Source: Veillonella sp. T11011-6 (GTDB lineage: Bacteria > Bacillota > Negativicutes > Veillonellales > Veillonellaceae). From it: a stretch of 64,000 bases of DNA. The DNA lies in the NCBI RefSeq assembly GCF_002959755.1, contig NZ_PPCW01000001.1:620001-684000 (forward strand), given 5' to 3'. Below, piece after piece: positions 6,122 to 51,960 of this stretch (position 1 is the first letter of the stretch; each line of letters starts with the position of its first letter). Below the pieces are notes generated by a model. It ran no database searches, was not told the origin of the DNA, and saw only the letters and a list, made by a program, of their open reading frames with translations. A program made the translations under genes and the position numbers.

Positions 6122-6145
6122 AAAGGACCCTCCAAAGAGAGTCCT
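6122..6145 (-). terminator. Terminator of the infC-rpmI-rplT operon
   Basis: The stem AAGGACTCTC / GAGGGTCCTT (one mismatch) is followed on the minus strand by a T run and lies 20 bp past the rplT stop. Confidence 0.8.
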
Positions 6146-6165
6146 TAATCTGTATTGTTATGCTA

Positions 6166-6516
6166 TTAAGCGTTTTTAGCTACTTCAACAAGTTTAGCGA
6201 ATGCTGCTGCATCGTTAACTGCCAAGTCAGCCAACATTTTACGGTTAACTTCAACGCCTGCTTTAGCTAAACCAGCGATGAAACGGCTGTAAGTTGTGCC
6301 ATTGATGCGAGCCGCTGCGTTGATACGAGCGATCCACAATTGACGGAATTCGCGTTTTTTCGCACGACGGTCACGACGAGCATAGTACAACGCTTTCATT
6401 ACTGTTTCGTTAGCTTTTTTGAACAAACGGGAACGTGTACCACGGTAACCTTTAGCTAATTTTAAAATCTTTTTATGACGTGCATGAGCTGTAACGCCTT
6501 TTTTCACTCTTGCCAT
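6166..6516 (-). CDS. rplT: 50S ribosomal protein L20
   Basis: 116 residues, the normal length for L20, with the typical highly basic N-terminus ([20 protein letters not shown]) and [15 protein letters not shown] further on. It binds 23S rRNA early in 50S assembly. In several bacteria L20 also represses its own operon through the infC leader, which fits the attenuator upstream. It is the last gene of infC-rpmI-rplT, with a strong AGGAGG site and a terminator directly after it. Confidence 0.97.
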
Positions 6517-6562: not shown

Positions 6563-6760
6563 TTAAGCGTATGGTAAGCATTTAGCTACACGTTTGTGGT
6601 CAGCTTTTGCAACCAATGTAGCTTTACGCAAATTACGTTTACGAGCTGGAGATTTTTTCTCAAGAATGTGGCTTTTGAAAGCTTTTGCACGCTTGAATTC
6701 ACCAGTACCAGTTACTGCGAAACGTTTAGCCGCTGCGCGACGAGTTTTAATTTTTGGCAT
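6563..6760 (-). CDS. rpmI: 50S ribosomal protein L35
   Basis: 65 residues, the normal length, starting [20 protein letters not shown], which is characteristic of L35. A large-subunit protein, encoded between infC and rplT as in most bacteria, with a GGGAGG ribosome site. Confidence 0.97.
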
Positions 6761-6781: not shown

Positions 6782-7291
6782 TTATTTACTTACTAAAATC
6801 ATGGTCATGTTACGACCTTCTAATTTAGCTGCTTTTTCAATAGACGCTGTTTCTTTGAGTTCTTCAGCGAAACGTGTCAACACTGCCATGCCTAGTTCTG
6901 GATGTGAAAGTTCACGACCGCGGAACATGATGGTTACTTTTACTTTGTTACCTTCACCCAAGAATTTGGATGCGTTTTTCATTTTTACGTAAAAGTCATG
7001 GTCTTCAATATGTGGACGTAACTTAACTTCTTTTAAAGTTACGATTTTTTGTTTCTTCTTCGCTTCTTTCTCGCGTTTTTGTTGTTCATAACGATATTTA
7101 CCGTAGTTCATAATGCGAGCTACTGGTGGTTTAGCGTTAGGTGCAATTTCCACAAGATCAAGATGCTTTTCTTCAGCCAAAGCCAACGCTTCACGGCCAG
7201 ACATGATGCCGATTTGTTCGTTTTCAGGACCTACGACACGAAGTTCACGAGCACGAATCTCTTCATTAATGCGTGGTGTATCCTTGCTAAT
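6782..7291 (-). CDS. infC: Translation initiation factor IF-3 (AUU start)
   Basis: 169 residues from the proposed start. The reading frame continues upstream, but the conserved N-terminus SKDTPRINEEIRAREL begins right after an ATT codon at 7291-7289, 8 bases after a near-perfect GGAGGTGA ribosome site; no ATG, GTG or TTG lies at a suitable distance. Use of AUU is the known autoregulatory device of infC in E. coli and others, because IF-3 discriminates against its own start codon. Both IF-3 domains are present (linker MNYGKYRYEQQKREKEAKKK; C-domain VKLRPHIEDHDF). It is the first gene of the operon with rpmI and rplT. Confidence 0.93.
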   Translation of the reverse strand: MSKDTPRINEEIRARELRVVGPENEQIGIMSGREALALAEEKHLDLVEIAPNAKPPVARIMNYGKYRYEQQKREKEAKKKQKIVTLKEVKLRPHIEDHDFYVKMKNASKFLGEGNKVKVTIMFRGRELSHPELGMAVLTRFAEELKETASIEKAAKLEGRNMTMILVSK

Positions 7292-7414
7292 AGCGTTCAC
7301 CTCCAAGAGAATAAAAAAAACGGACGGCAAACACCATCCGAATAGAGTTCTCTATATTAACCTCATACTTCTTGGTATTAGGTGAGTGGCGGATGGCCTC
7401 TGCTTCATAAATTA
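7292..7414 (-). ncRNA. infC operon leader with candidate antiterminator/terminator switch
   Basis: The leader of about 120 nt runs from the predicted transcription start to infC. A hairpin (CGGATGG, loop TGTTTG, CCGTCCG) followed by eight T residues at 7340-7313 on the minus strand looks like an intrinsic terminator just before the infC ribosome site. An upstream CCATCCG (7390-7396) is the exact complement of the terminator's CGGATGG arm and could form an antiterminator. A small hairpin ATAGAG-AA-CTCTAT lies between. This resembles L20-controlled infC leaders by position and logic; identity with the known L20 leader family was not tested. Confidence 0.7.
7313..7340 (-). terminator. Attenuator terminator in the infC leader
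   Basis: A 7-bp GC-rich stem with one G-U pair and eight T residues, ending about 20 bases before the infC start codon and directly upstream of its ribosome site. Confidence 0.75.
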
Positions 7415-7421
7415 CTTAATT

Positions 7422-7450
7422 ATAATAACAAATCGAATGGTGAAAGTCAA
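7422..7450 (-). promoter_or_regulatory. Promoter of the infC operon
   Basis: On the minus strand, TTGACT and TATTAT are separated by exactly 17 bp, a good match to a vegetative sigma-70 promoter, about 130 bp before infC. Confidence 0.75.
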
Positions 7451-7618: not shown

Positions 7619-7732
7619 TTTATAAAATAGTCTAGCTTATATAGTGTGCTTTATAGAATAGCGTATATTATAGGATAGTGTACTTTATAGAATAGTATAC
7701 TTTATAGGATAGTCTAGTTTATATAGTTTACC
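7619..7732. repeat. Array of seven imperfect 17-bp tandem repeats
   Basis: Units resemble TTTATAGRATAGTNTAC. Start positions are 7619, 7636, 7650, 7667, 7684, 7701 and 7718. Units two and seven lack three bases in the middle (14-15 bp). GAATAG and GGATAG versions alternate in units three to six. The array ends about 50 bp before the DASS transporter start, so it overlaps its probable promoter region. Too short and uninterrupted for CRISPR. It could be a multi-site operator or a variable promoter repeat. Confidence 0.85.
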
Positions 7733-7785
7733 TTATTTATTATTATACAGTAATAGTTATGATACAAATTGAAAGGAGTTTTATT

Positions 7786-11186: not shown

Positions 11187-13097
11187 TTAGTTACGTTCTT
11201 TGATTTCAATTTTAATGGAATTGAAGAATTCTTCAAATGGTACGGAACCTAATTCGTCACCACCGTGTTTACGAACGTTAACTGTACCTTCTTCAACTTC
11301 TTTATCGCCTACGACAAGCATGTATGGAACTTTTGCCATTTGTGCTTGGCGGATTTTGTAGCCAATTTTTTCGCTACGATCATCCACTTCTACACGTACA
11401 TAGTCGCGATGCATTTGTTTTGCCAATTCTTTAGCATATTCAACATGTTTTTCAGAGATAGGCAAGATTTTAACTTGTACAGGAGCCATCCAAGTTGGGA
11501 ATGCACCTGCATAGTGTTCAGTTAAGATACCGATGAAACGTTCCATGGAGCCGAAGCATGCACGGTGAATCATGATAGGACGATGTTTTTGACCATCTTC
11601 ACCAACATATTCAATTTGGAAACGTTCAGGCAAGTTCATATCCAATTGGATAGTACCACATTGCCATGTACGACCTAAGGAGTCTTCGATATGGTAGTCA
11701 AGTTTAGGACCATAGAATGCACCATCGCCAGGGTTGATTACGTAAGGAATACCTTTTGCTTCAATGGCATTGCGCAATGCTTCTGTAGCTGCTTCCCAGA
11801 TTGCATCATCACCCATTGCATTGTCTGGTTTAGTAGACAATTCAACATGGTATTTCAAGCCGAATTGGCTATAAATACGGTCGAACAATTCGATAACTTT
11901 CATCAATTCAGATTGCATTTGATCTGGCAACATGAATACGTGAGCATCATCTTGTGTAAATGCACGTACACGGAATAAGCCGTGTAAAGCACCGGACAAT
12001 TCATGACGGTGTACTAAACCAAGTTCAGCGTAACGCAATGGGAAGTCACGGTAAGAATGCATTTCGTTTTGGTAAACCAAGATACCGCCTGGGCAGTTCA
12101 TTGGTTTAATTGCATATTCTTCATCATCAATGATTGTAGTGTACATATTTTCACGGTAATGGAACCAGTGACCAGATGTTTCCCACAATTGTTTATTTAA
12201 GATGATTGGTGTACGAATTTCTTCGTAATCAAATTCATGGTGAACTTCACGCCAGAAGTTTTCCAATTCGTTGCGAAGTGCCATACCTTTTGGTAAGAAG
12301 AATGGGAAGCCAGGTCCTTCTTCTTTGATAACGAACAAGCCAAGTTCTTTACCAAGTTTACGATGGTCGCGTTTAGCTGCTTCTTCAAGTAAGTGAAGGT
12401 ATGCATCAAGTTCTTCTTTCTTTTCAAATGCTGTACCGTAAATACGTTGCAACATTTTGTTCTTTTCATCGCCGCGCCAGTATGCACCTGCAATGCTTTG
12501 TAATTTGAAAGCTTTCACCTTACCAGTGGATGCTACGTGAGGACCTGCACAAAGATCGATGAAATCGCCTTGAGCGTAGCAAGAGATAACTGCATCTTCG
12601 GGAAGATCTTCGATCAATTCTACCTTGTAGTCTTCGTTTTTAGATTTGAAGAACTCGATAGCTTCTTGACGAGACATTACGGATTTAGTGATAGGCAAGT
12701 TTTCTTTTACAATACGGCTCATTTCCTTTTCGATTTTGCCCAAATCTTCAGGAGTCAAAGTATGTTCCATATCGATATCATAGTAGAAACCTTTATCGAT
12801 AGCAGGACCGATAGCTAATTTAGCTTCAGGCCATAAGCGTTTAACCGCTTGAGCCAAGATATGAGAAGCTGTGTGGCGCAAAGTATGTTTACCACCATCT
12901 TCTTCGAATGTTAAGAATGCTACTTCAGAACCATCAACGAGTTCTTCGCGAAGGTCTGTTAATTCGCCATTTACATTTGCAGCTAGTACTTTTTTAGCCA
13001 AGCTGTTAGATAATTGTTTTACTGCTTCCCCAAGAGTAGTGCCAGCAGCGTATTCCTTAGCACTACCATCAGGTAAAATGATTTTTACATCTGCCAT
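11187..13097 (-). CDS. thrS: Threonine--tRNA ligase
   Basis: 636 residues, the standard length. The start is the ATG at 13097, 8 bases after GGAGG; the longer frame would start inside that ribosome site. Domain order: TGS (VKIILPDGSAKEY), the editing domain with HTASHILAQAVKRLWP and a later HVAS (zinc-type HxxxH editing site), the class II catalytic core (motif 2 RYAELGLVHRHELSGALHGLFRVR; motif 3 GSMERFIGILTEHYAG) and an anticodon-binding domain. Charges tRNA-Thr with threonine. Its expression is predicted to be controlled by the T-box just upstream. Confidence 0.97.
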   Translation of the reverse strand: MADVKIILPDGSAKEYAAGTTLGEAVKQLSNSLAKKVLAANVNGELTDLREELVDGSEVAFLTFEEDGGKHTLRHTASHILAQAVKRLWPEAKLAIGPAIDKGFYYDIDMEHTLTPEDLGKIEKEMSRIVKENLPITKSVMSRQEAIEFFKSKNEDYKVELIEDLPEDAVISCYAQGDFIDLCAGPHVASTGKVKAFKLQSIAGAYWRGDEKNKMLQRIYGTAFEKKEELDAYLHLLEEAAKRDHRKLGKELGLFVIKEEGPGFPFFLPKGMALRNELENFWREVHHEFDYEEIRTPIILNKQLWETSGHWFHYRENMYTTIIDDEEYAIKPMNCPGGILVYQNEMHSYRDFPLRYAELGLVHRHELSGALHGLFRVRAFTQDDAHVFMLPDQMQSELMKVIELFDRIYSQFGLKYHVELSTKPDNAMGDDAIWEAATEALRNAIEAKGIPYVINPGDGAFYGPKLDYHIEDSLGRTWQCGTIQLDMNLPERFQIEYVGEDGQKHRPIMIHRACFGSMERFIGILTEHYAGAFPTWMAPVQVKILPISEKHVEYAKELAKQMHRDYVRVEVDDRSEKIGYKIRQAQMAKVPYMLVVGDKEVEEGTVNVRKHGGDELGSVPFEEFFNSIKIEIKERN

Positions 13098-13144
13098 TTT
13101 AATTTCCTCCAATTATTATCTAGGATAGACTGGATTTTTGTAAT

Positions 13145-13403
13145 AAAAAAAGACCCTCTATCCCTACAAAACAAGGGACGAAGATCATTCGCGGTTCCAC
13201 CCTAGTTAACTACCTATACGAATATATGTGTATAGTTAATTCACTTCATTAAGCCCGATAACGGTGGCGGCCGTATTTGCCTACTTAGGTTCGACAAATC
13301 AGTTTAAAGGGGGTAACTCTGATATATGTGTAAGGCATTTCCAGCATCAGCCTCTCTCTGGTACACAGGGATATGAGAATCATGTCCTTTGCATAACTTT
13401 TAC
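13145..13403 (-). ncRNA. T-box leader (threonyl-tRNA sensing)
   Basis: The hallmark T-box sequence GGTGGAACCGCG is present on the minus strand (13201-13190). Downstream is a terminator stem ending in seven T residues (13151-13145). An AGAGAGAGGCTGATGC segment typical of stem I lies upstream, and ACC in GAGTTACCCCC (about 13320-13310) is a plausible threonine specifier codon. Uncharged tRNA-Thr would stabilise the antiterminator and allow thrS transcription. The T-box identity is direct from sequence; the specifier is inferred from position and the downstream gene. Confidence 0.93.
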
Positions 13404-30190: not shown

Positions 30191-30248
30191 GAAGTTCTCC
30201 TAACAAAGATCTACAATCTTATATACTATAAATTATATCTTAAATATG

Positions 30249-30602
30249 GAAGCAAGCAATCAATAAGCCGAGTTCTGTTCCGCTTGCGCGGTGACGATTA
30301 TCTTTCTAGGCGTACAGTCGCCTGCACGCTCGAGCGACACAACCCGGAAGGTAGGCGGGACCACCCTTAACCCTTCCCTATTCGGTCTTGCTCCGGATGG
30401 GGTTTACCGAGCCAGCCTGTTACCAGACTGCTGGTGAGCTCTTACCTCACCTTTCCACCCTTACCACTGACGTGGCGGTTTCCTTTTCTATGGCACTTTC
30501 CCTAAGGTTACCCTCGCCAGACGTTATCTGGCATCCTGCCCTATGGAGCTCGGACTTTCCTCGAGTCCTATGGACTCGCAACCGTCTTTCATACTTGCTT
30601 CA
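30249..30602 (-). ncRNA. rnpB: RNase P RNA
   Basis: On the minus strand the conserved GAGGAAAGTCCGAGCTCC near the 5' end, GGTAAACCCCATCCGGAGCAAGACC in the middle, and ACAGAACTCGGCTTAT near the 3' end are the universal blocks of bacterial RNase P RNA. The ends pair (GAAGCAAG with CTTGCTTC) to close the molecule at about 354 nt. It is the catalytic RNA that trims tRNA 5' leaders. Reading frames across this stretch are not genes. Confidence 0.97.
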
Positions 30603-51780: not shown

Positions 51781-51960
51781 AAAAAAGCCCCACCATGCCG
51801 TAATGTACCGCGTTTTGATCCTGCTTAGGGCAGGTGGGTGTCCTCCTCATCCTTCAGTTGTCCCGTAAGGGCGTAACGTTCAGACGAGAGTTCGGACTCC
51901 CGAAGTAAATGTGTTGGCTCAAAACTGCGATATCACACGCACATGGCAGGGATATCTTAT
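51781..51960 (-). ncRNA. ssrS: 6S RNA
   Basis: About 180 nt on the minus strand. The ends pair (CCCTGCCATG with CATGGTGGGG) to give a closing stem; the middle contains ATCGCAGTTTTGAGCCAACAC and GACACCCACCTGCCC, conserved blocks I recognise from Firmicutes 6S RNA. A T run follows the closing stem. 6S RNA mimics an open promoter and sequesters sigma-A RNA polymerase in stationary phase. Its place between rarA and aspS matches B. subtilis ssrSA, which supports the call. Confidence 0.9.

Follow-up and report, generated by a model that had tools for sequence, protein, structure and literature searches.

We found that infC in the window (the whole 64,000-nucleotide stretch of Veillonella DNA analyzed here) is preceded by a genuine, conserved element that belongs to a known family and is not a new system. 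With high confidence, we identify it as an L20 leader that controls the infC-rpmI-rplT operon by transcription attenuation, as in Bacillus subtilis. The leader lies directly ahead of this operon, the infC of which has its closest named matches in V. tobetsuensis (99%) and V. denticariosi (98%). The analysis shows directly which elements are present and how they are arranged, that they are conserved and covary, and which operon follows; the parts are listed below (basis in brackets):

6123..6146, minus strand, terminator-like site 3′ of rplT (terminator search)
6166..6516, minus strand, rplT, encoding L20, the presumed ligand (TIGR01032)
6563..6760, minus strand, rpmI, encoding L35 (TIGR00001)
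6782..7291, minus strand, infC, encoding IF3, with AUU at 7291-7289 taken as the first codon (TIGR00168, E 1.1e-68)
7297..7304, minus strand, Shine-Dalgarno GGAGGUGA (sequence)
7306..7411, minus strand, L20 leader RNA (Rfam RF00558 match, model 1-127)
7313..7320, minus strand, U8 run (sequence)
7321..7340, minus strand, intrinsic terminator hairpin CGGAUGGU-GUUU-GCCGUCCG of 8 pairs (terminator search, covariation)
7340-7334, minus strand, antiterminator 3′ strand, which is the terminator 5′ arm CGGAUGG (sequence)
7342..7355, minus strand, optional hairpin H3 (predicted fold only; the region is gapped and variable in the leader alignment)
7360..7383, minus strand, hairpin H2, ACCU...AGGU (alignment, covariation, predicted fold)
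7385..7401, minus strand, hairpin H1, AGAGGC-CAUCC-GCCACU, the anti-antiterminator, with an A7399.A7387 mismatch (covariation, genus comparison)
7390..7396, minus strand, antiterminator 5′ strand CCAUCCG, spanning the H1 loop and inner stem (swap test, covariation, shuffles)
7422..7450, minus strand, promoter-like site TTGACT-17-TATTAT, its second hexamer preceded by TG (consensus match only)

We posit that H1 and H2 would fold first in the nascent transcript. When free L20 is scarce, CCAUCCG would base-pair with the terminator's 5′ arm and keep the terminator from forming, and RNA polymerase would continue into infC. L20 present beyond its 23S sites would bind the H1/H2 junction and keep H1 closed, whereupon the terminator would form and transcription would end upstream of the infC ribosome site. 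Most likely, then, surplus L20 would switch off its own operon. Both the binding of L20 and the direction of the response are modeled on B. subtilis, and the H1/H2 junction is presumed to be the L20 site by assignment from PMC6097659. The original prediction of an L20-controlled leader is borne out in part: the leader is of the L20 type and its antiterminator is conserved and covaries, and control by L20 is added by analogy.

The hairpin and the eight T residues of that prediction are present; they do not, as it had it, directly adjoin the ribosome site, eight other bases intervening before the Shine-Dalgarno. Its perfect complementarity between an upstream segment and one terminator arm can be read directly: CCAUCCG (7396-7390, minus strand) complements the 5′ arm of the terminator, CGGAUGG (7340-7334), at every position, and a perfect 7-nt complement of either arm arose in 34 of 20000 dinucleotide-preserving shuffles of the upstream 71 nt. 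The antiterminator of the window is predicted to extend beyond these 7 bp, through a helix between GCAGA (7403-7399) and UUUGC (7331-7327), the latter lying within and past the terminator loop. The leader fold is unremarkable by itself, with a whole-leader energy z-score of just -1.56 (13 of 200 shuffles are equally good), and the case is therefore built on comparison and not on folding energy. This z-score could be held to favor a constitutive intergenic terminator or a chance hairpin devoid of regulation, a reading to which we assign a negligible probability: both alternative pairings are conserved and covary class-wide, which excludes chance by comparison, and a constitutive terminator would stop an operon of translation factors on which cells presumably depend. 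As for the promoter-like site, such consensus matches are as frequent in the whole stretch as expected (6 found vs 6.2), and a TTGAC near this position is seen by eye in 14 of 14 loci of the genus. Between it and a divergent transporter gene at 7759 sits an AT-rich tandem repeat (7641-7723) of 17/34-bp units (ATAGTGTACTTTATAGA, 4.9 copies).

At the curated cut-off, an Rfam scan reported no L20 leader at the window locus. With the cut-off relaxed, the RF00558 (L20_leader) model aligns end to end to 7411-7306 (E 8.2e-6 in a 1-kb search), so the Rfam search proposed earlier returns a full-length match which, at 38.6 bits, stays below the gathering cut-off of 58.7; the H2 and spacer of the window are shorter than in the consensus. 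The same place is the best in the whole genome (E 3.7e-6; the runner-up reaches 23.0 bits). Of 150 genomes sampled from the class, which we take to be Negativicutes from the names of the infC matches, 144 have an RF00558 match at E<=1e-5. Among the six others, infC was not found in four (G006, G021, G103, G123), while G144 and G067 have infC and, when read, the leader. The loose threshold of E<=1 recovers 147 of 150, but also 6 of 14 control genomes, and the three class genomes with no match at all also yielded no infC. Since the Rfam cut-off overlooks 82 of the 150 class genomes, including 11 of 11 from the genus, annotation by the cut-off alone under-reports the L20 leader; of nine class loci given to Rfam, three pass it.

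Reading of individual loci placed infC downstream of the leader in 186 of 186 cases (161 distinct leaders), a figure that is not an independent rate because 142 of these loci were fetched through their RF00558 match, some represent one genome reached twice, and the leader anchor search was permissive (up to 10 edits). Loci chosen through infC, without RF00558, gave 39/39 (L038-L076) and 4/4 (L230-L233), several of them being already in the genome sample; one genome with a match, G085, has its locus outside those fetched. The distance from the stem end to the infC start has a median of 32 nt (range 14-124 across the 186 loci). Five loci (L037, L074, L121, L159, L174) have 78-125 nt between the leader terminator and infC, where ~32 nt is usual.

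Evidence for the switch comes from a MAFFT alignment, not fitted to a structure, of 95 of 96 representative leaders (L167, with a terminator mis-called by the script, was omitted; L077-L117, 41 loci of more distant relatives, and L001-L007 were set aside). The covariation across the class that had been put forward as a check is borne out: changes on both sides of a pair occur in 8/8 pairs of the terminator (95.3% of cells paired), 5/6 of H1 (98.4%), 4/6 of H2 (82.4%) and 6/8 of the antiterminator (87.8%). The alternative pairing, on whose conservation the prediction had been staked beforehand, is thus conserved, and none of 500 shuffles reaches any of five measures for the antiterminator. When its strands are slid by 1 to 3 columns, the paired cells drop from 87.8% to 37-52%, the cells changed on both sides from 18 to 3-10 and the covariation score from 0.177 to 0.029-0.072; the count of six pairs changed on both sides is equalled by one slid version. 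The two outermost antiterminator pairs are unpaired in 28 and 32 of the 95 rows. A concrete compensatory case is provided by Megasphaera and relatives, where the loop CUAUCCG is matched by the arm CGGAUAG. An alignment-free swap test, in which each H1 strand is paired either with the terminator arm of its own leader or with that of a different species, agrees: across the 161 distinct leaders the own terminator gives -14.80 and permuted ones -13.02 kcal/mol, and with the set reduced so that each distinct strand occurs once (n=36) the values are -13.51 vs -11.17 kcal/mol, with 0 of 10000 permutations as good in either set. The comparative support for the antiterminator thereby spans the whole presumed class.

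The same kind of test bears on a translational reading, in which UCACCU of the junction masks the Shine-Dalgarno GGAGGUGA. The minimum-energy fold does pair UCACCU and CCAAGA with UCUUGGAGGUGA, but own and permuted pairings are equivalent here (-9.93 vs -9.87 kcal/mol, with 688 of 5000 permutations equally good, or 830 of 5000 when each distinct junction is represented once, n=35), and the CCAAGA part varies within the genus while UCUUGG is constant. With no covariation signal in the swap test, we rejected masking by the H1/H2 junction and consider it very improbable as the mode of control.

Returning to attenuation by L20, the junction is conserved: A1, A2, G3, G6 and C22, C24, C25 of the CACC box are invariant in the 95 rows, with near-invariance for the A of CACC and for the G and U on the 3′ side of H2. 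The invariant AAG and C.CC boxes and these near-invariant A, G and U all recur in the RF00558 consensus, and H1, H2 and the terminator occur in the window in the RF00558 order. One could conceive of the same switch answering a signal other than L20 (e.g., transcription-translation coupling or another operon product), and the H1 change in Veillonella, three pairs away from the presumed L20 site, could be cited for it; the boxes kept in every row and in the family consensus, and the encoding of L20 within the operon, argue against such a signal, which we regard as a slim prospect. A motif search also indicates that the AAG, CACC and GGU boxes resemble the E. coli 23S pieces CAAAGU, CACCGAAG and CUAAGGU, which we take to be the L20 site; the 5′ piece was found in 5 of 8 loci. 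The organism's own 23S has AACC where the leader has CACC, and a local alignment of the leader to it, a procedure that misplaced L234 and L237, returned an unrelated stretch only. These likenesses are at most suggestive of a leader that mimics the 23S L20 site.

IF3 exerts feedback on its own synthesis through rare start codons of the AUU type. Across the 186 loci, the infC start codon picked was ATT in 141, ATA in 23 and ATC in 6 (170 of 186 together); in the other 16 the first pick was an ATG, GTG or TTG, in frame and closer to the Shine-Dalgarno, with ATT or ATA downstream in each. The AUU start read earlier in the window is supported as part of a conserved non-AUG start, of the kind through which IF3 autoregulates. 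Double feedback on the operon, transcriptional and translational, is plausible but would not be special, as B. subtilis, according to the available part of PMC6097659, likewise combines an L20 leader with an infC ATT start.

Predicted energies favor the antiterminator state in the window, both for the complete leader (-27.9 vs -23.3 kcal/mol for H1 plus terminator) and before the terminator 3′ arm is made (-16.5 vs -11.2 kcal/mol for H1), so read-through is the expected default and termination would require L20. In the class at large, H1 plus terminator is the lower state in 83 of 95 complete leaders, and the antiterminator is lower in 62 of 95 as long as the 3′ arm is still missing. All such figures give a rough balance, since the calculation imposes H1 together with the terminator on one state and the antiterminator alone on the other. 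H1 sets the genus apart from the family: it is AGAGGC...GCCACU with an A.A mismatch in 13 of 14 Veillonella genomes and AGAGGC...GCUUCU in the remaining one (G151). In the two sister genera the mismatch is absent, and one of these has a G-U pair. RF00558 scores run at 37.2-43.5 bits in the genus vs 51.3-56.5 in the two sister genera (leaving out G144, where the class search did not pick up the leader), and we infer that the mismatch is a main cause of the low score. More tentatively, and on balance doubtfully, the main Veillonella clade could have been re-tuned, the mismatch weakening H1 such that the leader would antiterminate by default and rely on L20 for termination more strictly than relatives do. 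The antiterminator is favored in 11 of 12 genus leaders computed vs 1 of 6 relatives; this comparison covers the loci in which the script found a 3′ arm (12 of 14 in the genus, 6 of 13 relatives), and the mismatch-free G151 lies outside the 12. Against re-tuning, many genus leaders are near-identical and hence not independent, one genus margin is only 0.4 kcal/mol, G136 is even (-20.9 vs -21.0, as L221 in the 95-leader energies), L255 favors the terminator despite its mismatch, and L165 favors the antiterminator without one.

The original suggestion that no L20 leader had been described in this lineage does not stand: PMC7160235 (2020), in the part available, names one in Veillonella sp. among expressed transcripts (Rfam 12.2, E<1e-4), and 68 of the 150 class genomes pass the Rfam cut-off. 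Sharing genus and family model, it is very probably the same element as that of the window, and in that part of the article it is listed only, with no coordinates, structure or mechanism. The consulted portions of PMC6097659, PMC10931766 and PMC3766115 make no mention of a Veillonella leader; the last reports the L20 motif in its five Firmicutes groups and Thermotogales, leaving Negativicutes unnamed in the main text excerpted. According to the excerpts, the B. subtilis leader has two alternative structures (PMC10931766), and its terminator is stabilized when L20 binds the H1/H2 junction (PMC6097659). That infC leader (RF00558), as far as these excerpts describe it, equals the window in the order of H1, H2 and terminator, in its site before infC, the operon, the alternative pairing and the non-AUG infC start. 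The E. coli rpmI-rplT operator is similar in that L20 represses its own operon via an mRNA copy of the rRNA site, but differs, in the portion of PMC10931766 at hand, in acting translationally, in using two sites, one of them a long-range pseudoknot, and in leaving infC outside L20 control.

Other RNA elements are also found on the minus strand of the window, namely a T-box leader (RF00230, 105.8 bits; 13171-13403) before thrS (11187-13112), which is not a neighbor of infC here, RNase P RNA class A (30248-30598) and 6S RNA (51783-51955).
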